Shown here: piece after piece, positions 2,143 to 18,681 of the stretch
Position numbering within the stretch: position 1 is the first letter of the stretch
Layout: the number at the start of each line of letters is the position of its first letter
IMG/VR virus record: IMGVR_UViG_3300020411_003861
Coordinates: 1 to 21,051 of that record
Strand: one strand, 5' to 3'
Origin: a virus
DNA: 21,051 nucleotides
Made by a program: the position numbers and the translations under genes
The notes under the pieces: model-generated
What the model saw: the letters and a program-made list of their open reading frames with translations, nothing else
What the model was told of the DNA's origin: nothing
The model's database searches: none

Positions 2143-2751
2143 GTGTTAAGTATTAGATTTAAATTAACTAAAGATGATTTGCAGATTGCAACCCAATTCG
2201 CAGAAGATCGCGCTAACTTATCTTATGACCAGTATTCTAAAAGAGGACAAAGTTGCCTAGATAGAATAAAGGGAGATATTGTTACGGGAGCTTTAGGGGA
2301 GTTAGCAGCCTACAAATTATTAAGCAAGTTTACAGATGTAGACCACCCGGATTTTAAAGTCTATGAAAAAAGAAAGAAGAGCTGGGCAGCGGATTTTGTA
2401 GATGGAAAAGGATATAAATTCCACTGTAAATCGCAATCTGAAGAGAGTCGTAAAAAGTATGGACCTAGTCATATTTTACAGTATGGTGGAAATGGTCACG
2501 GGAATGTGGATAAATTATTTACAAATCGTTCTGAGCTGGATTATTTGGTTTCTTGTCAAGTAAATCAAAAAGAAATGTATGTAGATATTTATGGGGTATA
2601 TCCTGTAGAAACTCTTTTTGAAATGGATTTTATTAGAATGCCAGCAAATCCGTGGTTCAAAGATACTAAAAGAGCTGTATATCTAGATGATTTGTTAAAT
2701 TTATCAGAGGCTGAAAGATGGGGCATTATTATGCCGGGGAGGGGCGAATGA
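2143..2751 (+). CDS. Possible PD-(D/E)XK-type nuclease
   Basis: A 202-residue protein. The GTG start at 2143 is supported by GGGGG at 2134-2138. Residues 44-96 have the layout of a restriction-endonuclease-like core: a helix with GE (E53) in ALGELAAYKLL, PDF at 69-71, D84 in a predicted strand, then HCKS with K96. In active family members the residue two before the lysine is usually Asp, Glu or Gln; here it is H94, so activity is uncertain. After the core come an aromatic middle part and a C-terminal 'YVDIYGVYP' strand. Its place in the replication arm fits a role in host DNA breakdown or recombination. The final codons overlap the dCTP deaminase start (ATGA). Family assignment is tentative. 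Confidence 0.6.
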   Translation: MLSIRFKLTKDDLQIATQFAEDRANLSYDQYSKRGQSCLDRIKGDIVTGALGELAAYKLLSKFTDVDHPDFKVYEKRKKSWAADFVDGKGYKFHCKSQSEESRKKYGPSHILQYGGNGHGNVDKLFTNRSELDYLVSCQVNQKEMYVDIYGVYPVETLFEMDFIRMPANPWFKDTKRAVYLDDLLNLSEAERWGIIMPGRGE

Positions 2752-3287
2752 TCTTAGCGGATTCTGCTATATTAAAAGCTATTGATAAGAAAGAAATCGT
2801 AATTTCGCCTTTTAATAGAGAGTGTTTAGGTAGTAATAGTTATGATGTGCATTTAGGAAAAATTTTAACTTGTTACAATAAATCTCAATTAGATTCGAAA
2901 AAAGATAATGAAACTATAAATTTCACTATCCCAGATCAAGGTCTACTTTTAGTCCCAGGTAGAATTTATTTAGGTGTTACGAAGGAATACACAGAATCTC
3001 ACAAGCACGTACCTTTTTTAGATGGAAAATCCTCAATTGGGAGATTGGGGATTTTTATCCATGCTACTGCAGGAAGAGGTGACGTAGGGTTCTGTAACAG
3101 ATGGACTTTGGAGTTAATTGTTACGCAACCTGTAATAGTTTATGCAGGTATGAAAATAGGACAGTTATTTTTCTATGAAACAAGTGGAGAAGTATTAGTT
3201 CCATATAATAAAAAGAAAGATGCGAAATATACAGAGGTTAGTAGTGAACCACAGTCTTCACAGATGCATTTAAACTTTAAGGAGTAG
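2748..3287 (+). CDS. dcd: dCTP deaminase (dUTPase/dCTP deaminase superfamily)
   Basis: Converts dCTP to dUTP and ammonia, feeding thymidine nucleotide synthesis. A start at 2748 gives 179 residues and the classic N-terminus (MILADSAILKAI), preceded by GGGGAGGGG; a longer frame from 2718 is unlikely. Family signatures: SYDVHLG at 31-37; GKSSIGRLG at 93-101 (the Ser-Ser-x-x-Arg signature); HATAGRGDVGF at 105-115; and TLEL with E122, the position of the catalytic glutamate. KYTEV and SSQ near the C-terminus match the nucleotide-covering tail. No dUTPase or thymidylate synthase lies in the window, so whether it is mono- or bifunctional (dCTP deaminase/dUTPase) cannot be told by eye. It is translationally coupled to the gene before it. 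Confidence 0.93.
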   Translation: MILADSAILKAIDKKEIVISPFNRECLGSNSYDVHLGKILTCYNKSQLDSKKDNETINFTIPDQGLLLVPGRIYLGVTKEYTESHKHVPFLDGKSSIGRLGIFIHATAGRGDVGFCNRWTLELIVTQPVIVYAGMKIGQLFFYETSGEVLVPYNKKKDAKYTEVSSEPQSSQMHLNFKE

Positions 3288-3507: not shown

Positions 3508-3670
3508 TTTATTAATATTTTATGGATTTGGAGTAATAATGGGAACAATTATTGGAGGACAGGATTGTTCTAAACCAATAGTCAAGCCTTTAAAAACAAA
3601 ACCTATCAAGGTACGTCCTCTTGTAGATAGAAGACCCTTCTTACCTTGGGAGATAAGGAGAAATAGATAG
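3500..3670 (+). CDS. Small Pro/Lys-rich protein with hydrophobic N-terminus
   Basis: A 56-residue reading frame filling the gap between two good genes. From ATG 3500 it has a hydrophobic first 20 residues, then Cys23 and a basic, proline-rich tail (KPIVKP, KTKPIKVRP). That shape recalls phage outer spanins (Rz1-like lipoproteins), but the residue before the cysteine is Asp (GGQDC), which is not a lipobox. A second start, ATG 3539, has a better ribosome site (GGAG 3530-3533, spacing 5) and would remove most of the hydrophobic segment. The stop TAG shares its G with the GTG start of the next gene. The tight packing supports a real gene; the function is unknown. Confidence 0.5.
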   Translation: MINLLIFYGFGVIMGTIIGGQDCSKPIVKPLKTKPIKVRPLVDRRPFLPWEIRRNR

Positions 3671-3975
3671 TGGAGATTATAGGGTACGTTAGCGGAATTA
3701 TGCTTGCTTTATGCGGATTACCGGAAGCCATTAATTGCTATTTTAGAAAAAGATGCGACATTGGGTGGGGATTGCTCCTAATGTGGTTAGGAGGAGAAAT
3801 TGGGCTTTTGGTTTATGAGATACCTACAATGGCTATGCCTAGGGTAATAAATTATGTTTGTAATATTGTATTTATTAGTGTAATGATCTATTATAAGATG
3901 AAAAGAAATAAATGCGGATTTTGTGATGTTCCTTGTAATAATTCTTGGTGTAGTTTTGGAGGTAAAGGTGAATAA
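3670..3975 (+). CDS. Three-helix PQ-loop/SemiSWEET-like membrane protein
   Basis: A 101-residue integral membrane protein. It has three predicted helices at about 3-22, 33-50 and 58-76, with P18-E19 at the end of helix 1 where PQ-loop proteins carry Pro-Gln, and the usual short basic loop after it (FRKRCD). This is the layout of a single triple-helix repeat, as in SemiSWEET sugar carriers, which act as dimers. The C-terminus adds a soluble cysteine cluster C82-x2-C85-x3-C89-x4-C94 that could bind metal and is not a family feature known to me. The GTG start at 3670 is preceded by AAGGAG at 3655-3660 (spacing 9). Assignment rests on topology plus the Pro-Glu position, so it is moderate. Confidence 0.6.
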   Translation: MEIIGYVSGIMLALCGLPEAINCYFRKRCDIGWGLLLMWLGGEIGLLVYEIPTMAMPRVINYVCNIVFISVMIYYKMKRNKCGFCDVPCNNSWCSFGGKGE

Positions 3976-4246
3976 AGGTATAAAATTTGATTTTGATAAA
4001 CTACAATATGATTTAATTGATCCTTATGCTTTAGAGGATATGGCAAAAGTATTGACTTTAGGTGCTAAAAAGTATGATAGGTATAATTGGAAAAACGTAG
4101 AGGAGTATAGATATGTGGCAGCTTCAATGCGTCATTTTGAAGCTTACAGAAAAGGGGAAATATGCGACCCAGAATCGGGAGTATCTCACCTGGCTCATGC
4201 TATGGTTAACTTAATGTTTTTATATTGTTTTGAAAATGAAAAATAG
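3968..4246 (+). CDS. dATP/dGTP diphosphohydrolase, DUF5664-type
   Basis: A 92-residue, all-helical nucleotide pyrophosphohydrolase of the phage DUF5664 (MazG-related) type, expected to hydrolyse purine dNTPs to dNMP and PPi. Signature blocks: KFDFDKLQYDLIDPYALED with LTLGAKKYDRYNW (residues 6-41), and RHFEAYRKGEICDPESG followed by SHLAHA (55-78). These hold the acidic and histidine residues E64, D67, E69, H74 and H77 expected at the metal site. The start is GTG 3968 with GGAGG at 3958-3962; the frame is open further upstream but only this start gives the normal N-terminus. It overlaps the preceding gene by 8 bases. With the dCTP deaminase it makes a small dNTP-pool module. Confidence 0.85.
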   Translation: MNKGIKFDFDKLQYDLIDPYALEDMAKVLTLGAKKYDRYNWKNVEEYRYVAASMRHFEAYRKGEICDPESGVSHLAHAMVNLMFLYCFENEK

Positions 4247-4388: not shown

Positions 4389-4389
4389 T
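4388..4389. other. Convergent junction of the early and late arms
   Basis: The last + strand stop codon ends at 4388 and the complement of the - strand holin stop begins at 4389. I see no GC-rich hairpin with a T-run on either strand nearby, so transcripts from the two arms should run into each other. Confidence 0.75.
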
Positions 4390-4778
4390 TATTTACCAAA
4401 TTTCGATACTTTAACTACTTTTTCCAGTGTGCGCCCGCCACAGTACGCGCCAAGAAGGATTTTAGTTAATTCATATACCTCTTTATCAGGATTACCTATT
4501 CCGTAAGCTGATAATACAACCAATAGTATAAGGCTTAAAGCGGCGACTGGGCGCCAAATAGCCGTAACAGTATGAGGACTCTGGGCTTCGGCAATCATGA
4601 GCTTAGAACGAGCCTCAACCACCTTAGCTTCGTAATCTAGCATCTGTTTTTGCGCTTGTGCTTGGATACCGGCTAATTCGTTTCGTAATTTACCTTTTTC
4701 CTCATCTGAAACGTGAAGTTCGTCTACAAGGTCTGCAGCGGGCTTGAATAAATTACTTATAAAGGAAAATATGGACAT
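4389..4778 (-). CDS. Holin of the GTA 3TM family
   Basis: Forms lesions in the inner membrane at the end of infection so that the endolysin can reach the cell wall. 129 residues. An N-terminal amphipathic helix (MSIFSFISNLFKP) is followed by DELHVSDEEKGKLRNEL (19-35), a charged coiled stretch rich in Ala/Gln, then IWRP at 74-77 leading into a membrane helix (78-95), and the conserved GAYCGGRTLEK at 110-120. The DELHxSDEEK, WRP and GGR-x-x-EK blocks are the hallmarks of the 'holin of 3TMs, for gene-transfer release' family. GGGGA at 4785-4789 precedes the ATG, which directly follows the upstream stop. The gene is clearly richer in G+C than its neighbours, with scattered CG-rich codons, suggesting a separate origin. 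Confidence 0.88.
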   Translation of the reverse strand: MSIFSFISNLFKPAADLVDELHVSDEEKGKLRNELAGIQAQAQKQMLDYEAKVVEARSKLMIAEAQSPHTVTAIWRPVAALSLILLVVLSAYGIGNPDKEVYELTKILLGAYCGGRTLEKVVKVSKFGK

Positions 4779-6363: not shown

Positions 6364-8529
6364 TTAATAGTCCTTTTTAAGTTTGTCTTGAGCTTTTCTA
6401 TATACAATTTGCCTCATTGGCTCTTTACCATCTTTTCCTTCTAGCATTTCTTGAGGAATATTTCGCGTTGTTTCAAAATCTTTGTTTAAGTACATTTTTT
6501 TCTTAAGACTTGGGATAGATTCTATCCAAGTTTTAACCTGGGTAATATCTTTTTCTGTAAAAGCTTTACCATCCCACCCTAGACCTGGTTGTACAAAAAC
6601 CCTACCCTGAGGCTCTTCTGCTAAAGTTGCCATTAAAGTTCCTATAGCACCTGTATTATTATCATCTAAAGCTGCTTGTAATTTTTTTGCCATATCTGGG
6701 AATTTATTTTTTATTAGAGGTAAAATGTGATGAGCTTGTTCATATACAGCTTGAGTATTTCTAGAAATAGGGTTTTCTGACAACAGTATTTCACTTTCCG
6801 CTGTTGCAATAGCTCTAGAAAAAGCTCTTACAGAGTGGGCAGAAGCTGCTAATATATTTGAAGCAATTCTACCTCCTATTTCAGGCTTTCTACCTATAAA
6901 ATTAGCTATATTTTTTAATCCTACTGCTAAATTAGCTGGAGCAGATCCAGAGTTTATAAATTGATTAAAAGAAGCTAATAATCCTAAAGAAGCTGCTTCA
7001 TTTACTCCTGCAGTCCTAGCTCCTCCTCTAACTAAATAACCGCTCCCTCTAACACTATCTTTTAATTTACCTATGAGCCCTCCGTCCAAAGTGTCAATTT
7101 TTTGGGTAATAAACCTTTCTGCTAAAAATAAATCTGCGTCCTGTCTTTTCATTCCCTTATAAGAAGCGTAAAGAACTTCATCATCTAATTCTGTTTCAAC
7201 CGCGTCTTGGATTATATTTTTTAACCTACCTCCTAATTTTTCTTTTTCTGCAATTAATAATAAATTATCATCTGATACAATCTGTTGTCCACTAGGAGTT
7301 GTTCCAGAAGAGTTTTTTGTATGTTTATATATTTTATTTTTTAAGATATTTAATTCTTTTAGACTTACATTATCTCTAAATTTTGCAACATTCTTAGTAG
7401 TTGTTTTAGTATCTGTCACAGTTCTCATAACGGGCTGACCCGCATCATCTAAAACTCCTGTAGCTACTTGTCTAGGTATATGTTCTACAGTTTCTTCAGG
7501 AACTACTTCTATAAAAAGATCGTCTAAATATTTTTTTAAATTATTTCCTACTTGTCTATGAGTAGGTTCTTGCAAACCTCCCTCCATAGTAAGAGGATCT
7601 ACAAAATCTCTTTTTAATTCTCTATATATATCTTTAGGTCTAAATTTAGCTCCTATTCGGTCATCTACCTGGGATAATACAGTATTTAAGTTAAAATCTA
7701 ATTGTTCTTTTTTTCTAACTACTTTATCTAAAGTCTCTACAAAATTTTGACCGCCTTTAAAAAGAGGTTCTCCATCCACTTTCATATTAAATAAATCGTC
7801 TGCAAATTCTTGTGTAGTTCTATTTCCATTTTTAACTAAATGATTTCTAAAATCTCTTCTAGCCAATTTTCCAGTTATGCCTAAAGCGTTTAGTAAAGAT
7901 CCAGATGAAAATTCTTTAGCAGTTTCTCTAACATATTTTCCTGCCTTAGTTATACCTCTACCTACCCCTTCTCCAAATACTGATAAACCTCCTCCTATTA
8001 CAGCATCTTCTGCAGCTTCTTCTAAAGTTTTTCTTTCTGATCTAAGATATCCACTCGCCATTCCCATAGCTACCGATTTAGCTAAATTTAGTTCGCCTGC
8101 ACCATAAGCAAAAGATCCTATAGTTCCTACAACATCTCCTGCCATATACCACCAAGGGTTATCTTTTCTAGCTTTTTCTAAAGATCTTCTTTCATCTTGT
8201 AAATTTTTATCGTAAACAGTAGACATTCCACTCAAAGTTAAAGGTTTTCCAGATACTCTTTGAGCAGCTATTTGTACAGCCATGTCATAAGCTGTTTGAA
8301 CTCCTGCCTGTAATTCATCACTAGCTCCAGCAGTTACGCCCTGGACCAACCCTTTTGTAAGAGAATCCGAAGAAGGCTGTACAGGAGATTCTTCTACAAG
8401 AATGTCTTCAGGTTCTCCTTCAAGTTCTTGAGCAGATTCTTCCGCAAAAATTTCTTCTTGTTCTTCCTCTTCTCCAAACTGTTTTAACAGCTCTTGGTAT
8501 CTTTTTTCTTCTTTAGGTGTTAATGCCAT
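6364..8529 (-). CDS. Large internal virion / DNA-ejection protein
   Basis: 721 residues, probably packaged in the head and ejected with the DNA. The order is: an acidic N-terminus (Glu-rich, ~14-48); a GVTAGASDELQAG motif (64-76) of the kind found in podovirus internal proteins; glycine-rich hydrophobic segments (~131-160 and 176-195, including VIGGGLSVFGEGVGRG) that could line a membrane channel; a long mixed helical middle; another Ala/Gly-rich hydrophobic stretch (~510-580); and a basic C-terminus. It has almost no cysteine. I see no lytic transglycosylase motif. The ribosome site (GGCGGGA) is only fair, and the gene starts 14 bases after the previous stop. Its position after two other internal-type proteins fits an ejection-protein trio. 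The role is inferred from composition and context. Confidence 0.65.
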   Translation of the reverse strand: MALTPKEEKRYQELLKQFGEEEEQEEIFAEESAQELEGEPEDILVEESPVQPSSDSLTKGLVQGVTAGASDELQAGVQTAYDMAVQIAAQRVSGKPLTLSGMSTVYDKNLQDERRSLEKARKDNPWWYMAGDVVGTIGSFAYGAGELNLAKSVAMGMASGYLRSERKTLEEAAEDAVIGGGLSVFGEGVGRGITKAGKYVRETAKEFSSGSLLNALGITGKLARRDFRNHLVKNGNRTTQEFADDLFNMKVDGEPLFKGGQNFVETLDKVVRKKEQLDFNLNTVLSQVDDRIGAKFRPKDIYRELKRDFVDPLTMEGGLQEPTHRQVGNNLKKYLDDLFIEVVPEETVEHIPRQVATGVLDDAGQPVMRTVTDTKTTTKNVAKFRDNVSLKELNILKNKIYKHTKNSSGTTPSGQQIVSDDNLLLIAEKEKLGGRLKNIIQDAVETELDDEVLYASYKGMKRQDADLFLAERFITQKIDTLDGGLIGKLKDSVRGSGYLVRGGARTAGVNEAASLGLLASFNQFINSGSAPANLAVGLKNIANFIGRKPEIGGRIASNILAASAHSVRAFSRAIATAESEILLSENPISRNTQAVYEQAHHILPLIKNKFPDMAKKLQAALDDNNTGAIGTLMATLAEEPQGRVFVQPGLGWDGKAFTEKDITQVKTWIESIPSLKKKMYLNKDFETTRNIPQEMLEGKDGKEPMRQIVYRKAQDKLKKDY

Positions 8530-8543
8530 TATTCCCGCCTTAT

Positions 8544-9806
8544 TTACTCTTTATTTTTTTTACTAAATTTTTTTGCTTTGAGTTCTTGTAATTCTTCCCA
8601 ATTAGCTATTCTTTGTTTTAATTTTACATCTTTAGTAGCTTTCCATCCTTTAGGGGCAGTTTTTTCAGCTTTTGTATATATCTTTTTAAGTTCTTCTTCT
8701 ATTTTATCTGTATCTCCATAATGTTTATTTAAAACGTTTATTTTTTCTCTATAAACTTTTGCCAATGTTTTAGCTTTCCATATAAATGTTGCAGGAGGAT
8801 CGTTAGGGCTAGGTATAATTCTTTCTGACATTTTTAGTTCTTGATCACTATAGGCTGTTCCCGATAAAGCCCTAACATAGTTCTTTAATAATTGTCTAGA
8901 TCTACTTATAAGTTCATAAGCAAATTTCTGATCTTTTTCTGTTCTACCTGGTATGCCTGTAGTTGCGGCAATTGCTTGTATAGTTCTGCCAGCTAAAGGA
9001 CCTAGTAGATTAGAAGATGCTTCAGGATTTGCCTCAAAATGAGAAATAAGATTAGAGGTTTCGCTTTCTAATTCTAAATAAGAAGCTGTTTCTTTTTTAC
9101 GAACCTTATCCATTGTTCTAGCATATTTAGCTTCATCTTGTTTTTTATAAAATCCATGTCTTCCTTCTTGTCTAACATCCCTCGGATCTACTACTTTAAC
9201 ATGCCCAGGAACGGAAGCTAACTGCCCGTCTCTGGTTCTAAATACATGTCCAGACCCTGGGTTAAAATAGACATAATGTTTTTCTCCTCTTTCATCAATA
9301 AAATATTTTCCTTCTGTTTGTTGCAGTTTTGTCTTATCTGTTAATCCTAATATTTGAGCCCTTTTTAAATTAAATTCTGCATCTTTTCGTTTTTGTTCGT
9401 CTACTCCTATTCTAACTTTATTGGCATGTCGCAACCCTTCTAAAGCTCCTCTTTCTCCTCCTAAAGCATATCCCAACATTCCTCCTATTATATCTGGAGT
9501 AAAATAAGCTAAAGCTTTCCCTAAGTTTTCTCCTGAAAAAGAGTCTCCTATACCTTCCCAAAAACCTTTCTTTTTCTTCTTTCCTTCTTTAGGTAGAGGT
9601 AAAGGTTCTTTTTCTTCAAATTCTGCTATTTCTTTTTTAGAAAACTCGTCTTCATGACTTTTAATAGCTTCTTTCTTTTTCTTTTTCTTCATCATTTTCG
9701 GCATCTTCTTTTTAACTACTTGAGGAACAACTTCTTTAGAAGGTGTTGTATTTGTTTCTATTTTTGTTGGAAGTTCTTCTCCAGTACCAATTGTCTTGCG
9801 TACCAT
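8544..9806 (-). CDS. Internal virion protein with TIGTGE N-terminal tag
   Basis: 420 residues. It begins with KTIGTGEEL (4-12), closely matching the start of the fibre-type protein at 17191-17694. Then come Lys-rich and Glu-rich low-complexity stretches (32-80), a Gly-rich hydrophobic patch (IIGGMLGYALGG, about 106-117), a short beta-rich part (YFIDERGEKHYVYF), and a helical C-terminal domain with LLKNYVRALSGTAYSDQE and ERIIPSPNDPP, a pattern I associate with phage internal/ejection proteins. The ATG overlaps the previous stop (TAATG) and has GGAGGA 4 bases upstream. It probably acts with its neighbours in genome delivery; this is inference. Confidence 0.65.
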   Translation of the reverse strand: MVRKTIGTGEELPTKIETNTTPSKEVVPQVVKKKMPKMMKKKKKKEAIKSHEDEFSKKEIAEFEEKEPLPLPKEGKKKKKGFWEGIGDSFSGENLGKALAYFTPDIIGGMLGYALGGERGALEGLRHANKVRIGVDEQKRKDAEFNLKRAQILGLTDKTKLQQTEGKYFIDERGEKHYVYFNPGSGHVFRTRDGQLASVPGHVKVVDPRDVRQEGRHGFYKKQDEAKYARTMDKVRKKETASYLELESETSNLISHFEANPEASSNLLGPLAGRTIQAIAATTGIPGRTEKDQKFAYELISRSRQLLKNYVRALSGTAYSDQELKMSERIIPSPNDPPATFIWKAKTLAKVYREKINVLNKHYGDTDKIEEELKKIYTKAEKTAPKGWKATKDVKLKQRIANWEELQELKAKKFSKKNKE

Positions 9807-10588
9807 TACATCCTCCTACCTAGGAACTTACATAAAGGTATACCTATTTTAAGTAAGAGCCTACCTAATAGATTTGATTCCCCAGAACCATTATGTCTAA
9901 AAGCTGCTTCGTTTGCCCAAGCCCACGCAAATGGCGCTAAAAAATAAGTTAATAAAGGAAATTGTTTCATTGTTCTAGCCACTGGGATGCCCCAGCTATG
10001 ATATCCTCGCATAACCTCTCTAGGTAGAGTGCGACCATATGCCTCATCTGCTCTAAGTATTGCAGGACATAGTAATCCTTGACGCATAGTTTGAGTACAT
10101 ATTACTTTACCACCCTCTGCGTCCGCCATTCTAGCTTTTTCAATTTCCGCATCTTTCTTTAATTGTTCGGATTCTTTTAAATGTTTTAATTGCTTATCTT
10201 GAGATTCTCTTAAATATGTTTGACTTAATAAACTACTAGTTCCTGCCATAATAGTAGCTTCTCTTCTTTTCATATCTTCTTTCTCATCTCTTCTCTCTTC
10301 TAATTCAGCTTTTTGTCTTTCACTAGTTAACATTTGGCTGTAGTCTCTGTCTATATTATACATTGCAGCAGCTTGATTAGCTCCTCCCATGGTAGACATT
10401 CTTCTTTGGGCTCCAAATTTACCACTAGCTATTCTTTTAACTAGTGCAGAATCTGACATTTCTTTTTCTGCAGTAGTCCTAGGTTTAAAACTAGAAAACC
10501 CTTTGGTTAGGTCCTCCATTTTTCTTTTTGCCTTAGTTACATCTTTTTCGGTTTCGTCTAAATAATTACTAGTTGTTTTTTCACTCAT
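9806..10588 (-). CDS. Internal virion protein with conserved C-terminal domain
   Basis: 260 residues from ATG 10588 (GAGG at 10594-10597, spacing 5); a longer frame to 10663 has no better start. Residues 80-157 form a highly charged coiled coil. Residues 158-260 make a compact domain starting GGKVICTQTMRQGLLCPA, then YGRTLPREVMRGYHSWGIPVA and FAWAWANE, ending with a basic amphipathic helix. I recall this CT-x-x-x-RQG ... GYHxWxxP pattern from virion proteins of several environmental phages; its exact role is unknown to me. The stop overlaps the next start (TAATG). Context between the tail nozzle and the large ejection protein suggests an ejected or tail-internal component. Confidence 0.68.
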   Translation of the reverse strand: MSEKTTSNYLDETEKDVTKAKRKMEDLTKGFSSFKPRTTAEKEMSDSALVKRIASGKFGAQRRMSTMGGANQAAAMYNIDRDYSQMLTSERQKAELEERRDEKEDMKRREATIMAGTSSLLSQTYLRESQDKQLKHLKESEQLKKDAEIEKARMADAEGGKVICTQTMRQGLLCPAILRADEAYGRTLPREVMRGYHSWGIPVARTMKQFPLLTYFLAPFAWAWANEAAFRHNGSGESNLLGRLLLKIGIPLCKFLGRRM

Positions 10589-10590
10589 AT

Positions 10591-10935
10591 TTACCTCATA
10601 AAAAATATTTTTGTTACACAAGCTTCGCCTGTATTTACTAAATATAATGTATTTGTGGTCCATTCCACTGCAGTAGGATAAAATTCATCTTTTTGTTGCT
10701 GTCTTACAGCATAATAATCTCTACTAATATTTCCTGCTCCTACCATATCTAATATTATAAATCCGGAAGGTATAAAGTCTACCTCATTAGGTATATTCCT
10801 TTTTTCTCTCTTATTGAAGTTTAAAGTTACTATAAACCCTTCTACATTTTCAACAAAAGTTAACTTCTCTAATCCAGGAGTTAATTCTGTTTTCAATTCT
10901 TCTACAGTTGTTAAATTTTCAAAAGAAAACTTCAA
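10591..10935 (-). CDS. Small tail-associated protein, TTG start
   Basis: 114 residues, mostly beta-strand. Residues about 45-114 (IPNEVDFIPSGFIILDMV ... WTTNTLYLVNTG ... KIFFMR) have the alternating pattern of a small beta-sandwich often found beside phage tail nozzles. The start must be TTG 10935: no ATG or GTG is available, the codon overlaps the nozzle gene's TGA (TTGA), and GGAG lies 8 bases upstream at 10944-10947. The function is unknown; a tail-tip plug or adaptor is possible from position only. Confidence 0.65.
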   Translation of the reverse strand: MKFSFENLTTVEELKTELTPGLEKLTFVENVEGFIVTLNFNKREKRNIPNEVDFIPSGFIILDMVGAGNISRDYYAVRQQQKDEFYPTAVEWTTNTLYLVNTGEACVTKIFFMR

Positions 10936-13900
10936 TGTTTAATCTCCGGTCTATATGGAGAAGCTACCTCAAATTCATATCCACTTAATAATACATTTTT
11001 ATTAAGTTCCTCATTTTTAAAACCAATCTGAATAGAAGTAGCTTTTCTACCAGATAATTTAGTCTTTAAAAATTTATTTCTTTCAGTGGGATTACCATAT
11101 TCTTTTTTACCGTAATCTAAAGCATTCCAACCTGCATACCATTTTGAAAAATCTAATTCCGTCCGACCTACAATAACACTATTATAGTTTAAACTAGTAG
11201 TTACATCAAATTTATATCCAGTTGTTTCAAAAGTTTTATCTGAGTCGGTAGAAAATACTTTTAATCTTAAAAACCTCTTTAATTGGGTACTATCTCCTAA
11301 ATTCACCCAGTTTGACGTGTATACAAATGGAATAGGAACGGAATGGTCTGAATAATCCTCAGTTATATTTAAATCTTGATTTACACAAAGCAAACTATCA
11401 CTTTCATTTAAAAAGAACATTCTACCTGTAGAATTTTGAAAAGCAACTCCTCTACTACATTCTACATTAGTCCATAAACTCCAAGACTCTCTAACTGTAT
11501 CGTAAACTAAATCTAAATTTTCTTTTTCTTTAAATTGTATATAAGGAGGTATAGATATAATATATAGATCTTCAGAATTCCAGTTTATGGCTAAAGCTCT
11601 ATTAAGATCGAATGTTTTCATTTCAATTAAAGGTTCTATTAGGGACCCTATAGCAATAGGAGGGGCTCCTGGAGCTACTTTATAAATTCCTTTATCACTT
11701 AAAAACCATAATTCTCCATTTACTTCTTTTATAGTAGCGTTAGCTGCGCAACCTATTCCCATGCTAGGTGAAGAGATAACGTTAATTCTTACTTGTCCTG
11801 TAGCAACATTTCCTCCCATGATACTTATAGCCTTTTCTTGGAAAACATATAGCATTTTATTTAATACCCCTAAACCAGTTATTTTACCTCCACTATCCGA
11901 GGATACAGTGAAAAAAGAACCTAGACCTGTATATACTTCAGGGTATCCAGCTTCCATCTTGTAAACAGTTCCAACACTTTCAGGATTTCCTGAAGATATT
12001 AAAGTATTTGATATACTGGTTAAATACCTACTTTTAGGTAGAGGGTATTGTTTATGAGCGTAAGGTAATTCTACTAAATCTTCATAAAGTAGACTTATTT
12101 GAGAGTCATATTTTTTATCTGAATAATATCTTTGAGGATCTAAATTTTGTGCCGGAACTTCTTCCACTAAATAATAATTTGGCTCACCTTGGAACAAATA
12201 ACCTAAATTTCTTGTTCGCCATATCTGAAGACGTAGTCCAGCCGAGACGGAATCATTTTGTTTTAAAGAAAACCAATATTTATCATCTCCAGTAAAATCT
12301 GCTCCAGTATCTCTTTTAGCAGTAACGTGAACAACTACTGTAGTATCTGTTACAGAAAGAATTTCAAAAAATCTAAATACATCAGATCCTTCTTTATAAG
12401 TATGGTAATGATCTTTAAATAATAAAAAATCCCCTGCTTGGAAGGTATGTTTTAAAGTAGCGTGTAAATTTATAGTAGCGGTTCTTCTATCATTTACATC
12501 TTCTTGTATATTGTCACTAGGAGCAATACTAGAACCTTCAAAATCTATATTATCATATACAAAACTTCCTCCAACTTCTTTACCTACTTTTGAATCATCG
12601 AAATTTTGATCAGCAGAAACTATTCCGCAAGCTGTATGGAAACCTTCTTCATCTGTAATATTGGGCATATTGAATCTAATTTCTCCAAAGCCTTTTATAG
12701 GTACTCTAGTAGCCGATATTTCTGAAGAAGTAGAAGGCACGCTTGCTTTATCAACAGAAACAGTCCATTCTGTATCATATCTTTTAGTATCTGCTCTTGA
12801 CATAGTTAATTTTAATTCTTTACTATCCGCTCCTGTAACTATATTTCCATTTCTATCTTTCATCATGTAGGTCATTTTCCAACGCCATTCATTATAAGCA
12901 TCTTGAGCAGGATTCCATTTATAATCAGACCCTTGATTTTCACAAGTTGCCCAATCACTACTAGAAGCAGCATTTGGAGTCCAAGTGTTTCCAGCATTTG
13001 TACAGGCATATTCTGTTGTATGGGATGTAGTCGTACCAGAGGAATTTGTACAAACTCCTCCAGGAACACTATTTCCGTATCCACTACTATTGTTTCCACT
13101 TTCATATTCTATTCCAGTACCTGGATGAGTATATATACATTGACCTGTTAAATGGTCTGTCCACAATCCTCCTGCAGCAACACAATCAGTAGAAGAAAGG
13201 TATAATTCTCCATTATCTTTTCTTATAGAGCAAAAACCTACGTCATCTTGAGGGTAAAAAGGTCCTGTATTAGTTAAAGAAACTGGAATTTGTTGACTAA
13301 CCTCTATATCCAAATTAAGAAAATTTTCTGACCAATAATCTGTTTCCCCAACATACCAGAGGTCTGTAGGCATTTTTTGAATAACTAGTGTAGAAAGGTC
13401 AATATCCGTAGGAAAATTAACTTGTATAACATCTTTTAATTCTAATGTATTCATTTTAGATTTTGAGGCATCTAATCTAGGTAACCACCCTTTATTAGTA
13501 GCTACTTCCCTATTCAAAGCAGACCCTGAAGGAAGTTGAAGTCCGTAAGGATTATTATAATGATCTTTAGCACCATTTGGAAAATTGTTAAATCTTTGGT
13601 GGACACATGTGTTGGCATGTCCATCATAAGGAGTCCAAGGAATTTTTCCAGCGGGGTCCGGGCTAGAAGGGTTGTAGTAACCGCCTGTAAGTCCTGGGTA
13701 ACTAGTTTGTTCTGTATGAGTTCCTGTTTTACCTAAACTATTGCTTAACCAAGGAGCATTTTCTAAAAACGTTTTTAATTCTTCTAAAGTAGTAGTTCCT
13801 TTAGTTACATTAAATTTCTGACTAACAGCTACCGTATCATTCGATTGATCTATAGTTCCCCAATCAAAACCATCTTCTACCCCGTGTTTTAGAACGTGTT

Positions 13901-14225
13901 CAAACCAAAATCCTCTATAAGAATACTTATCGTACCAATCGTCTCTTTCTGCAACACTAGTACCTGTTTTATTGGTTAGAGTAGGAAGTAAAACGGAATC
14001 ATTATCAACAAATTTTAATTTATCCCTGCGTCTTCTTATTTTAACTTGAACGTCATAATTGTTAGGTCCATTTTCGGTTATATGTATCCAAGCCCTATCT
14101 CTGTACCAGTGAGGAGCTTTTTCAAAATATTCTGAATAACTAGTATGAATAGGTTTTTGAACTTGTCTAGATCTAGATTCTTTAGGATTAACTAGATCTA
14201 TAACAGCTTGTACTATAGCTCCCAT
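10932..14225 (-). CDS. Tail nozzle protein, C-terminal part (P22 gp10-like propeller)
   Basis: 1097 residues. The C-terminal ~650 residues carry the signatures of the podovirus tail nozzle/stabilisation protein (P22 gp10 type): YNEWRWKMTYMMKDRNGN (444-461), YYLVEEVPA with a later RYLTSISNTLISSGNP, LYVFQEKAISIMGG (792-805), NGELWFLSDKGIYKVAPG (836-853) and DTVRESWSLWTN, i.e. successive beta-propeller blades. The first ~330 residues look unlike a nozzle, with basic and Trp/Tyr-rich stretches. Residues 332-430 are a Cys-Gly-Trp insertion with repeated C-x3-G-x2-W units. The usual N-terminal nozzle blade is absent and is instead found in the gene at 14576-15745, so the protein appears split. The ATG overlaps the acetyltransferase stop (TAATG). 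Confidence 0.82.
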   Translation of the reverse strand: MGAIVQAVIDLVNPKESRSRQVQKPIHTSYSEYFEKAPHWYRDRAWIHITENGPNNYDVQVKIRRRRDKLKFVDNDSVLLPTLTNKTGTSVAERDDWYDKYSYRGFWFEHVLKHGVEDGFDWGTIDQSNDTVAVSQKFNVTKGTTTLEELKTFLENAPWLSNSLGKTGTHTEQTSYPGLTGGYYNPSSPDPAGKIPWTPYDGHANTCVHQRFNNFPNGAKDHYNNPYGLQLPSGSALNREVATNKGWLPRLDASKSKMNTLELKDVIQVNFPTDIDLSTLVIQKMPTDLWYVGETDYWSENFLNLDIEVSQQIPVSLTNTGPFYPQDDVGFCSIRKDNGELYLSSTDCVAAGGLWTDHLTGQCIYTHPGTGIEYESGNNSSGYGNSVPGGVCTNSSGTTTSHTTEYACTNAGNTWTPNAASSSDWATCENQGSDYKWNPAQDAYNEWRWKMTYMMKDRNGNIVTGADSKELKLTMSRADTKRYDTEWTVSVDKASVPSTSSEISATRVPIKGFGEIRFNMPNITDEEGFHTACGIVSADQNFDDSKVGKEVGGSFVYDNIDFEGSSIAPSDNIQEDVNDRRTATINLHATLKHTFQAGDFLLFKDHYHTYKEGSDVFRFFEILSVTDTTVVVHVTAKRDTGADFTGDDKYWFSLKQNDSVSAGLRLQIWRTRNLGYLFQGEPNYYLVEEVPAQNLDPQRYYSDKKYDSQISLLYEDLVELPYAHKQYPLPKSRYLTSISNTLISSGNPESVGTVYKMEAGYPEVYTGLGSFFTVSSDSGGKITGLGVLNKMLYVFQEKAISIMGGNVATGQVRINVISSPSMGIGCAANATIKEVNGELWFLSDKGIYKVAPGAPPIAIGSLIEPLIEMKTFDLNRALAINWNSEDLYIISIPPYIQFKEKENLDLVYDTVRESWSLWTNVECSRGVAFQNSTGRMFFLNESDSLLCVNQDLNITEDYSDHSVPIPFVYTSNWVNLGDSTQLKRFLRLKVFSTDSDKTFETTGYKFDVTTSLNYNSVIVGRTELDFSKWYAGWNALDYGKKEYGNPTERNKFLKTKLSGRKATSIQIGFKNEELNKNVLLSGYEFEVASPYRPEIKH
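10944..10947 (-). promoter_or_regulatory. Ribosome binding site supporting a TTG start
   Basis: GGAG on the - strand, 8 bases before TTG 10935. It lies within the last codons of the upstream gene and is the main reason to accept the rare TTG start. Confidence 0.6.
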
Positions 14226-14566
14226 TAATCTAACCTCTTAATAAAGTATATCATAGAATTTTTCTCGTCTAATTTTTTAATTTTAAAGTCTCCACATATT
14301 ATAGGTATTATACTAATTTCAGGATTTTGAGCATTAATAGAAATAGATGTAACTATACAAGATTTATTTAATTCTAAAGCTATTTTTTCTATATAGTTTA
14401 AAAAATTTCTAGCGTGCCCTTTTCCTCTACACTCTTGTAACACATACATATCTTGTAAATATATATTATCTGACCCTATAGTGTAGGTTACAAACCCATA
14501 TTTATTTTCAAAATAATGCTTATTTTCTCTTTCTAATATATATTTAGCATATAATGAGTTTTGCAT
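14225..14566 (-). CDS. GNAT-family N-acetyltransferase
   Basis: 113 residues. Acetyl-CoA binding motif A is clear: IYLQDMYVLQECRGKGHARNFL, with R47-G48-K49-G50-H51-A52 fitting the R/Q-x-x-G-x-A pattern, preceded by the usual beta4 strand and followed by the helix LNYIEKIALELNKS. The beta5 region (CIVTSISINAQNP) has Asn where GNATs often carry a structural residue. It is short for the family but covers beta2 to beta7. AAGGA lies 6 bases before ATG 14566; the gene sits 9 bases after the N-terminal nozzle gene and overlaps the C-terminal one. The substrate is unknown; modification of a virion protein or of a host target are both possible. Confidence 0.83.
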   Translation of the reverse strand: MQNSLYAKYILERENKHYFENKYGFVTYTIGSDNIYLQDMYVLQECRGKGHARNFLNYIEKIALELNKSCIVTSISINAQNPEISIIPIICGDFKIKKLDEKNSMIYFIKRLD

Positions 14567-14575
14567 AAATTTTCC

Positions 14576-15745
14576 TTAGTGCCAAAAAGGGTTTCTTTCA
14601 GTCCACCATTCTGTAACAGTTCTGCTACCAGTTTGTCTAGTAGCACTTGCTGAAAAAGAATAAGGTTCGTGATTAAAATGATGAACTCTATCATCATCTA
14701 ATCCAGACATATCAGTAGGCTGTTCATGTGTCCAATAACTTGAATCTTTGGGCTGTACTCCCATAGTTACTGTAAAAGTTTTAAATAAAAGTCCGTCTAC
14801 ATCTCCACCTGCTAAAGAGGTGTCCGGAGCTTTTTTCATACCTGCATTATACACTCTATTTCCGTCATATTTTTTTAAAGGAGAATGTCCAGAAGCAATA
14901 TATAAATTATTATTTAAATTATGGAAATCATATACTTCAGATACTTCATAATCCTGTTTTAAACCAGTTTCTTTAAAAGTATGAGAAACTCTATTGTTTC
15001 CTCCATTACGTATTTTTTGCCACTTGTTGTAATATAACTTAGAAGGAACTGCTCCAGACTCTGAAAAAGTGTAGCCAGCTTCGGGTGTAACATCCCTAGT
15101 AATTTTTTCTCTAACTATTTTATTTAAAAAGGCTGCAGGAATATCTTCGTGGTCTGAAGGAAGAGTACCTAATGTAAATTTTCCTGAGGGCGGGGCTCCA
15201 TCACCTGTTCCTTGAATCCAGTCACTTAAATTTTTTAAAGTGATAAAAGTAGGTCCTTTAACTTCTCTTGTATATACGTCTTCTGTCCAATCAAATTCAA
15301 ATCCTTCTCCTAAAGAGAAAGTATATATTACAGAATCAGCGTCTTTAAATTCTTCTGATATTTCAAAAATAATTTCATATTTTTTAGAGTCGGTGTTTTG
15401 ATTAGCTTTTATTGTGTAATAAGCTGCATTAGTGTCTACAGAAGTTACATATTTAAAATCCAAATTATATTCTTTTAAACAATGTAAGTTTTTATCTGCA
15501 GCTACTAAGGTTTCTGTTATTTCTCCTGTGTCCATATCTGATCTATAATGAAAAGATAGTCCCTTTTTACCTACTCCTTGAGCTAAAACATGATGTCCTT
15601 TTCTTTTTTCAATTCCTCCATCTTCTCTAAATTTAGTATTTATTGCTATTTGAGCATAGCGAGGGTCTTCTACTATATTAGAAGTTCTTTCATCCATTCC
15701 TCTAAAATTACTAAATATTTTAAATAATTTATGTATTACACCCAT
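14576..15745 (-). CDS. Tail nozzle protein, N-terminal part
   Basis: 389 residues. It has the features that open P22 gp10-like nozzle proteins: DPRYAQIAINTKFREDGGIEKRKGHHVL (27-54, the 'many rows then kR-x-G' entry strand), a FHYRSD...ETLVAADKNLHCL blade (65-90), and LNNNLYIASGHSPLKKYDGNRVYNAGMKKAP (277-307), the strand that in intact nozzles precedes the Y-x-Y-x-x-x-Y-x-x-x-D-x-x-GN segment. That segment is found in the gene at 10932-14225 instead. ATG 15745 is chosen over an in-frame TTG at 15757 because GGAG at 15752-15755 lies 6 bases upstream and the codon overlaps the adaptor stop (TAATG). The last 60 residues are polar and Trp/His-rich. It probably assembles with the C-terminal part into one nozzle. 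Confidence 0.78.
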   Translation of the reverse strand: MGVIHKLFKIFSNFRGMDERTSNIVEDPRYAQIAINTKFREDGGIEKRKGHHVLAQGVGKKGLSFHYRSDMDTGEITETLVAADKNLHCLKEYNLDFKYVTSVDTNAAYYTIKANQNTDSKKYEIIFEISEEFKDADSVIYTFSLGEGFEFDWTEDVYTREVKGPTFITLKNLSDWIQGTGDGAPPSGKFTLGTLPSDHEDIPAAFLNKIVREKITRDVTPEAGYTFSESGAVPSKLYYNKWQKIRNGGNNRVSHTFKETGLKQDYEVSEVYDFHNLNNNLYIASGHSPLKKYDGNRVYNAGMKKAPDTSLAGGDVDGLLFKTFTVTMGVQPKDSSYWTHEQPTDMSGLDDDRVHHFNHEPYSFSASATRQTGSRTVTEWWTERNPFWH

Positions 15746-16662
15746 TATATACTCCAACCATCGTCATTTATTAACGGAATATTTCTAATATCATCACTAA
15801 TTACTGAATAACTATCCAAAATGTCATTTTCCATTTGCATTAACTCTAAAGCTGCTTCTTTAGAGTCTACAGAAGAATCTCTTTTTAATATCTTCCAAGA
15901 GCAGTAAGCAATTAGATATCTTTCTAAATTTTGAGGCAAGTCTGAATGAGAGGTAGCGTCTTTCCCTCCTAGTACATAGTCTCCTACGGATATAGATTCT
16001 CCAGCTTCTGCTAAATGCGCACCTAAAATTAAACTTGTAGCACTATTTACTGAAGTTAAAGGGATGTTTTTCATTTTGTTTTCCCCATAAGCGTTCACTA
16101 TACATATATGTTGATGTTCTTGAAGAGAAGTTGTAGATGTAGTAAAATTATCATTATCTAATTCTAAAGTAGCTCCACTAGAAACGTCTGATACAGCGGT
16201 TTTAACTAATCCTCTTCTTAAATCTAAATCTAATACTCGTTTAATATAATTAATTCTAATTTTTCCTTGAGAAGGTACGGGAGCTAAAAGCAATTTTCCG
16301 GACTTTCTTATATACTTGGATGGAGATCCTTCAATGCCTGAAGATCTTCTTTTTAAGGAAGCTTCTTCTAAAGTATAGAAATCTTCCTCATTTCCAGTAA
16401 AAGAATATTCTACATTGTTTACTTTATTTCCTAAAAATGCATTTGAAGGTAAGGCATAAGATTCTTGACCAGATACTATATCTATTGTAACCTCTTCTAC
16501 AAATACTGAAGGATGTTGAGCTACAATTTTTGACTGTAACCTAGATTGAGCATCATTTAAGTATTGAAGAAATTCAGAGTCTTGTATACCAATAAAATCA
16601 TTAACCTCTTCGTTTTCTGTCTCTCTTCTAACTTGGTCTATTATATATTTTACATATCTCAT
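15745..16662 (-). CDS. Head-tail adaptor protein (P22 gp4-like)
   Basis: 305 residues. It joins the portal ring to the tail nozzle. The N-terminal helix pair with FLQYLNDAQSRLQSKIVAQHP (31-51), followed by QESYALPSNAFLGNKVNNVEY and IRINYIKRVLDLDLRRG, is the standard architecture of podovirus adaptor/connector proteins. A beta-rich insertion (~155-230) is followed by the C-terminal helices (NLERYLIAYCSWKILKRDSS), typical of the part that docks on the portal. GAGG precedes the ATG closely. The gene order adaptor-nozzle matches other short-tailed phages, which strengthens the call. Confidence is good for the role, less for the exact family. Confidence 0.75.
   Translation of the reverse strand: MRYVKYIIDQVRRETENEEVNDFIGIQDSEFLQYLNDAQSRLQSKIVAQHPSVFVEEVTIDIVSGQESYALPSNAFLGNKVNNVEYSFTGNEEDFYTLEEASLKRRSSGIEGSPSKYIRKSGKLLLAPVPSQGKIRINYIKRVLDLDLRRGLVKTAVSDVSSGATLELDNDNFTTSTTSLQEHQHICIVNAYGENKMKNIPLTSVNSATSLILGAHLAEAGESISVGDYVLGGKDATSHSDLPQNLERYLIAYCSWKILKRDSSVDSKEAALELMQMENDILDSYSVISDDIRNIPLINDDGWSI
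15752..15755 (-). promoter_or_regulatory. Ribosome binding site deciding ATG 15745
   Basis: GGAG on the - strand, 6 bases before ATG 15745. It would lie inside the coding sequence if the TTG at 15757 were the start, so it argues for the shorter N-terminus (MGVIHKLFK). Confidence 0.7.
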
Positions 16663-17706: not shown

Positions 17707-18681
17707 CTATAAATCGTATAATTTTACTACTTTAACATAGCAAAAACTATCATTTACATTTGTGTAAGTATTAGCAGTTCTACACTCTTGATCTTCTGAA
17801 AAGTAATGTTTAATATTTATCCCTAAAGTCTGAGTTGAGGTTGCCTTCACTATTGCAGTAAGTGTAGAAGCTGGGGAAGTATCATTATAAGTATATACCT
17901 CATCTCCTCCAGTAAGTGAAGTAGTAGATCCCGTAGCCTGTTGTTGATGATAAGGAGTTCCTCTTATTGTATTCCGTACTACATCTAAAGAATCATATAG
18001 CCGAGCCTCTATGTTAAACTCGTTATGAGGATGCAAATCTCCTGTATCTTCGTCATCTAATTGAACCCTAGCAGTTACTAAGTACATTGCATAGGTAGGA
18101 AATACAATTCGACTATAATAAGTATTACTGCCTACAGTTAACGTATTATTTGAAGTATCCCATGCATTAGAAGTATTACCTACACTATAACTTCCGGATG
18201 CCATTGTCCAATAAATAGGTTCATCAGTATAATCATACCAAGAATTTGATGTAGACGAAAAATCGTGTGCATAAGTTACAATTCCATCAACGTGAAAAGG
18301 AGAAGCAAACGCATCTGCACCATCTGCACCATCTGCACCATCTGCACCGTTAGCCCCATCTTGTCCTGGGGGTCCGGAAGGTCCTTGAGGTCCTTGAGGT
18401 CCATCGGGTCCTTCGGGTCCTGCAGCTCCTTGAGGTCCTGCGGGACCTTGGGCTCCATCATTTCCTGGAGGTCCTGCAGCTCCATCAGCCCCATCAGGTC
18501 CTGCGGGTCCCCTAGGACCAGGTGCTGAGGTTATCCAAGAACTTCCATCCCAAGTCTTTAGTACGTTATCATTATCATCAAAAACTATAACACCTTTTTC
18601 TAAATTTTGGGTAGGGAGAGAAGAAACAGATTCTACTCTTATTCCTCCTTTAAACTTTTTTGTATTCTTTGCATCTGACAT
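17707..18681 (-). CDS. Collagen-like fibre protein with C-terminal jelly-roll-like head
   Basis: 324 residues. Residues 1-54 form a small attachment domain (EKGVIVFDDNDNVLKTWDG, a beta motif common at the start of phage appendage proteins). Residues 55-123 are 23 unbroken Gly-X-Y triplets, rich in GPx, GAD and GPQ, which should make a collagen triple helix and hence a trimer. Residues ~128-324 are a beta-rich head with YAMYLVTARVQL (a C1q/TNF-like strand) and FCYVKVVKLYDL at the end; they include a few His/Asp sites. Probably a receptor-binding or decorating fibre. GAGG before the ATG overlaps the previous gene's stop. Strong call for the repeat, moderate for the head fold. Confidence 0.85.
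   Translation of the reverse strand: MSDAKNTKKFKGGIRVESVSSLPTQNLEKGVIVFDDNDNVLKTWDGSSWITSAPGPRGPAGPDGADGAAGPPGNDGAQGPAGPQGAAGPEGPDGPQGPQGPSGPPGQDGANGADGADGADGADAFASPFHVDGIVTYAHDFSSTSNSWYDYTDEPIYWTMASGSYSVGNTSNAWDTSNNTLTVGSNTYYSRIVFPTYAMYLVTARVQLDDEDTGDLHPHNEFNIEARLYDSLDVVRNTIRGTPYHQQQATGSTTSLTGGDEVYTYNDTSPASTLTAIVKATSTQTLGINIKHYFSEDQECRTANTYTNVNDSFCYVKVVKLYDL
18313..18519 (-). repeat. Collagen repeat tract with 9-base tandem units
   Basis: Encodes 23 Gly-X-Y triplets. At its 3' end (18313-18350 area) the unit GGTGCAGAT repeats nearly exactly, giving GAD-GAD-GAD-GAD; elsewhere units vary by codon. Such short tandem units can expand or shrink by slippage and so change fibre length. Confidence 0.9.

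Follow-up and report, generated by a model that had tools for sequence, protein, structure and literature searches.

The closest described counterparts of the system treated here are the podoviral nozzle proteins T7 gp12, SU10 gp17 and P22 gp10. In T7, the C-terminal platform receives three strands from the 45 N-terminal residues, a velcro closure pairs the first and last propeller strands, and a loop of blade 3 runs out to the nozzle tip (PMC6702177). SU10 has immunoglobulin (Ig)-like nozzle domains that form an insertion between blades 2 and 3 of the propeller (PMC9509320). Genes in pieces are also known from phages: Aeh1 nrdA is split by mobE and the T4 topoisomerase genes by mobA, and Aeromonas phage 25 has gene 43A/43B; the Aeh1 nrdA product was shown to be functional, and 43A and 43B co-purify with polymerase activity (PMC2988022). 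The split phage proteins that we found described are enzymes cut by homing endonucleases or similar elements, and a limited search of the open-access literature turned up no report of a nozzle that is split. Here we analyse IMG/VR record IMGVR_UViG_3300020411_003861, a single metagenomic record of 21,051 bases from an uncultured short-tailed phage, probably a fragment, which was used whole as the window. Its tail nozzle is encoded by two genes, nozN and nozC, with a GNAT acetyltransferase gene between them. The two correspond to one ancestral nozzle protein that was split in this lineage, and most likely they co-fold into one nozzle. We also think it probable that this is a natural two-chain nozzle, cut at the exit from propeller to tip, with the tip freed to carry a large new N-terminal domain. 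The genes concerned are as follows.

15745 to 16662, minus strand: adaptor of the SU10-adaptor family (PF24175, E 1.3e-11)
14576 to 15745, minus strand: nozN gene, 389 amino acids counted from ATG, with a TTG four codons upstream
14225 to 14566, minus strand: GNAT gene, 113 amino acids
10932 to 14225, minus strand: nozC gene, 1097 amino acids
10591 to 10935, minus strand: g114, a small gene directly after the nozzle in most relatives where it is seen

The evidence for a split comes from single-chain relatives. Direct searches with nozC, nozN or the N-terminal extension of nozC found no relatives, and neither protein on its own matched Pfam or a named PHROG family. A search with the adaptor gave two loci, L002 and L003 (57% identity), and more loci were obtained through family alignments. 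L002 and L003 each have one nozzle gene of 769-777 amino acids between the adaptor and g114. BLASTP aligned residues 1-269 of the L002 nozzle to nozN 1-320 (E 1e-24), residues 270-301 to nozC 443-474 and residues 322-769 to nozC 657-1097 (E 4e-63 for this long segment), so that nozN and nozC cover consecutive parts of a nozzle with no overlap. The closest single chain, L011, is 34.5% identical to nozN (over L011 residues 5-290, E 1.5e-42) and 33.6% identical to nozC (E 1.6e-85). The original prediction had placed a KYDG strand in the first gene and the next expected strand in the second, as consecutive parts of what is elsewhere one protein. All of this was borne out: nozN carries the KYDG strand at residues 292-295, nozC has the Y...Y...D..GN strand at residues ~445-461, and the two parts align consecutively to one ancestral gene. 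With profile models for each half, both were found in one reading frame in 52 of 52 related viral loci and split in none (the 52 include a few that are near-copies or are missing the 3' end; three other loci are distant or cut by a contig end). Homologues in which the halves are complete and unrelated to each other were thus not what we found, but the opposite. In the adaptor tree the window lies inside a seven-member group whose other members are all single-chain (support 96/93), and this nesting makes the split the derived state. Searched with the nozC alignment, bacterial genomes yielded no prophage relatives.

Both halves are under equal constraint. Of the invariant family residues, nozN retains 15 of 15 and nozC 15 of 18; of the near-invariant ones, nozN retains 26 of 31 and nozC 44 of 52. 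The identities of nozN and nozC to five relatives run in parallel: 35.6 and 36.6% (L011), 29.1 and 31.6%, 33.1 and 31.9%, 31.4 and 30.6%, and 27.8 and 28.2%. The two halves share the same nearest relative and neither decays faster, which speaks against both a remnant and a mosaic origin.

We then considered the parts of the two proteins, which can be divided as follows.

14810 to 15745, minus strand: nozN residues 1-312, N-terminal nozzle part, aligned to L011 and L002
14579 to 14809, minus strand: nozN residues 313-389, C-terminal tail of ~77 amino acids without counterpart in relatives
12900 to 14225, minus strand: nozC residues 1-442, extension specific to this phage, of no detectable family
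12906 to 13238, minus strand: nozC residues 330-440, cysteine-rich stretch C..TxxxCxxxGGxW inside the extension
12126 to 12899, minus strand: nozC residues 443-700, region predicted to be the Ig-like nozzle tip, beginning with the WKMTYMMKDRNGN strand
10932 to 12125, minus strand: nozC residues 701-1097, the other blades of the propeller together with the C-terminal platform, from alignment and model

The conserved N-terminal nozzle part is present, in nozN, where residues 1-312 would comprise the strands of the platform and the first blades of the propeller, up to and including the KYDG..VYNAGM strand. nozC residues 443-700, which align to L011, L007 and L030, are predicted to be the nozzle tip, a placement taken from the SU10 and T7 architecture, and residues 701-1097 are 31-34% identical to the C-terminal parts of the closer relatives. 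Both chains were modelled singly with AlphaFold from shallow alignments of 24 rows each. The nozC model has a mean predicted local distance difference test score (pLDDT) of 56, with much of residues ~730-930 at about 75-93. Compared with the PDB by Foldseek, it matches nozzle proteins best (SU10 7z4f, E 2.5e-13), with further matches to Pa223, Pan3, cyanophage A4, VP1, Pam1 and T7 gp12; the nozzle fold of propeller, tip and platform was recovered for nozC only. The nozN model has a mean pLDDT of 63, is low at residues 1-53 and 310-389, and alone matched no PDB structure. This fits an incomplete fold, but it is no proof because the model is weak. The nozN profile weakly matched residues 23-75 of the A4 tail tubular protein B (E 0.034). 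As a separate observation, the nozzle homologues H39, H41, H54, H55 and phrog_5107 are named 'amidase' or 'dimodular nonribosomal peptide synthetase', apparently propagated misannotations.

Since nozC alone matches nozzle structures and has a large N-terminal extension, nozC might form the nozzle by itself, the extension replacing the lost N-terminal strands, with nozN left as a dying remnant. We regard this as improbable: nozN keeps all 15 invariant residues and diverges at the rate of nozC, it is intact with its start and stop coupled, and the extension is unlike the N-terminal part of nozzles. In favour of one nozzle made of two chains, the locus resembles the podoviral nozzles in that the gene follows the adaptor, the nozC fold matches T7 and SU10, and the N-terminal part is homologous to the single chains of relatives. 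It differs from them in having two chains, a 442-residue extension on the second and a tail of ~77 residues on the first.

The break lies after the KYDG..VYNAGM strand and before the Y.YR..Y...D.KGN strand. Judged by the architecture of described nozzles, it most likely falls where the chain exits the propeller for the tip domains, outside any blade; architecture was used because sequence similarity to the SU10 and P22 nozzles is weak, and those alignments were set aside as proof. The same site takes large insertions in four unsplit relatives (L036, L073, L075 and L076), where about 100-185 residues are inserted, compared with ~28 in most relatives; these sizes are approximate and were read from the sequences, automated linker-length patterns being unreliable for some rows. 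The four resemble the window in having their inserts between the same two strands, and L036 has a similar cysteine-rich stretch as well; unlike the window, they have one uninterrupted chain, and the inserts of L073, L075 and L076 are dissimilar to that of the window. Those three inserts (~165-185 residues, at residues ~490-680 of nozzles of 1215-1247 amino acids) are similar to each other. The L080 nozzle has 1484 amino acids.

The extension itself had no match in IMG/VR, Pfam, PHROGs or the relatives except for its cysteine-rich stretch, and its model is of low confidence with a mostly unpredicted fold. The chance of 442 codons staying open is ~1e-15, so chance is excluded. The cysteine-rich insertion of L036 aligns to nozC residues 390-470 (E 0.005). 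Such C..TxxxCxxxGGxW repeats occupy several nozzle loops in this phage group: the L016 nozzle carries them at residues ~111-137 and ~238-268, and the L036 nozzle at ~579-620, the same site as in the window. A duplicated nozzle N-terminus was considered as the source of the extension and rejected, as the extension has no likeness to that part. Whereas the original prediction took these ~440 residues for a new interface between the halves, they are more likely a tip domain than a rejoining interface, because the site takes large insertions in single-chain relatives; an added tip domain is the most likely identity. The nozN tail (about 77 residues, ~313-389), which that prediction had not mentioned, is specific to nozN, has a pLDDT below 50 across most residues and matched no relative compared significantly. 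The GC contents of the tail (0.38) and the extension (0.36) are similar, as against 0.31-0.32 for the nozzle core and 0.24 for the GNAT gene. This similarity suggests, but does not show, that tail and extension are parts of one earlier insertion that was later broken by the GNAT gene.

Put together, the nozzle gene would have been broken in the loop that carries the chain out of the beta-propeller and into the nozzle-tip domains. An enlarged insertion at this exit loop would now hold a stop codon and a new start codon, with the relocated GNAT gene between them. nozN would contribute the platform strands of the N-terminus and the first blades of the propeller, whereas the tip domains, the other blades and the platform of the C-terminus would come from nozC. 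The two chains would be translated from neighbouring, coupled genes and most likely co-fold into one subunit, six of which would form the tail tip with the extension as extra material there. Given the platform strands and velcro closure of T7, nozN and nozC would interlock, and a break at the propeller exit makes it probable that the two pieces assemble into one nozzle. The proposal that a single-chain nozzle was split and that its halves assemble, or form a two-part nozzle, holds for the split, by consecutive homology; for assembly it stands as the best reading, since a single chain was split and both halves are equally constrained. If it is correct, a nozzle can assemble from two chains, a virion structural protein can be divided at a natural exit from a domain, a site permissive for added tip domains has been located, and a direct test of the closure of a broken propeller becomes possible. 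The insertions that unsplit relatives carry at this site suggest a route by which a loop insertion could lead on to a break in the chain. Several points weigh on the other side. The break was assigned to the propeller-to-tip exit by architecture only, the chains were modelled singly from 24-row alignments (mean pLDDT 63 for nozN and 56 for nozC), both halves conserve fewer residues than most relatives do, and the split was seen in one contig only, with no near-identical second copy found.

A single metagenomic contig with no second copy would also fit a split produced by a chimeric assembly or by sequencing errors. This is quite improbable. The minus-strand order is adaptor, nozN, GNAT gene, nozC, g114 and three larger genes; in the tail operon the first nozzle gene comes immediately after the adaptor gene, and the borders are those of single-chain nozzle genes, with the adaptor before and g114 after. 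The window adaptor is 57% identical to those of L002 and L003, where the single-chain nozzle comes next. (In L010, a distant relative, the usual order is inverted, with a nozzle-like gene placed upstream of the adaptor gene.) At the junction of nozN with the GNAT gene, a 9-base gap separates TAA from ATG, and AAGGA is the ribosome-binding site in front of the GNAT gene; the GNAT gene and nozC meet in a TAATG overlap, with AAGAGG upstream of nozC. The gene coordinates and both tight junctions given by the original prediction were reproduced. Ribosome-binding sites and operon-type spacing at both junctions argue against an artefact, as do inserted frames that are long and codon-like (GC content at third codon positions 0.18, close to neighbouring coding stretches), the shared nearest relative and divergence of the halves, and the lack of any repeat pointing to misjoining.

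The gene between the halves is a complete GNAT gene, as had been claimed: its 113-residue product matches PF00583 at 26.2 bits (cut-off 20.7) and PF13508 at 27 versus 27, and contains the acetyl-CoA motif R-G-K-G-H-A. It is not a homing endonuclease or mobile element, and no convincing direct repeats marking an insertion were found around it. The genes in pieces cited above encode enzymes and were cut by homing endonucleases or associated elements, whereas in the window the divided protein is a structural one of the virion and the intervening gene is a resident GNAT gene that is not known to be mobile. Homologues with 46-50% identity lie directly after g114 in L016, L025 and L026. In total 13 records hold a homologue, always downstream of the nozzle and never inside it, at several positions of the tail and ejection cluster; in many relatives the examined DNA contains no GNAT gene. 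This distribution suggests that a resident tail-cluster GNAT gene probably moved into the nozzle gene. Six members of the GNAT family were examined and all match general GNAT families. The window GNAT did not match the Pfam family of T7 gp13 and P22 gp14 (P22 gp14 itself matches PF11039), and a single-sequence comparison with P22 gp14 covered 40 columns (E 0.0084). In Cobaviruses, which are marine podoviruses, a GNAT gene adjoins the tail tubular and internal virion protein genes, and for such GNATs a correspondence to T7 gp13 and a gp13-like role in virion morphogenesis were proposed (PMC6775973). The window resembles them in the GNAT fold and the neighbouring genes, and differs in that its GNAT gene lies inside the nozzle gene and has no match to the T7 gp13 or P22 gp14 Pfam family.

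The position of the GNAT gene had been taken as a hint that its product modifies the nozzle, acetylating one or both halves and being placed between them for that purpose. The tight junctions and the acetyl-CoA motif would agree with this, and the gene is in the frame of nozN, such that readthrough of the nozN stop would fuse both. We consider it very improbable, because the homologues of 13 relatives are downstream of the nozzle at various positions, a GNAT is absent from the examined DNA of many relatives, and the role proposed for such proteins is one in virion morphogenesis. Nothing found here points to modification of the nozzle by this protein. Finally, phage genes often carry introns and inteins, but rejoining of the halves before or after translation is hardly credible, as Rfam gave no match at gathering scores and none credible at lax scores, the coding extensions are long, in frame and each with its own stop or start, and neither protein contains an intein family.

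Other genes of the window were noted. The three genes beyond g114 are probably a DNA-ejection protein cluster, to be compared with P22 gp7, gp20 and gp16 by size and order only.

6364 to 10663, minus strand: three genes (285, 420 and 721 amino acids) with homologues in the same order in relatives

In the structural cluster, 17707-18681 encodes a collagen-like Gly-X-Y repeat protein (PF01391, E 1.5e-14). Positions 2718-3287 and 3923-4246 encode dCTP deaminase-like and dATP/dGTP diphosphohydrolase-like proteins, possibly with nucleotide-pool or base-modification functions. A small multi-pass membrane protein at 3670-3975 looks SemiSWEET-like and has no Pfam match, and 4389-4778 encodes a holin-like protein with three transmembrane segments (PF11351, E 2.2e-9) that is conserved in L002.
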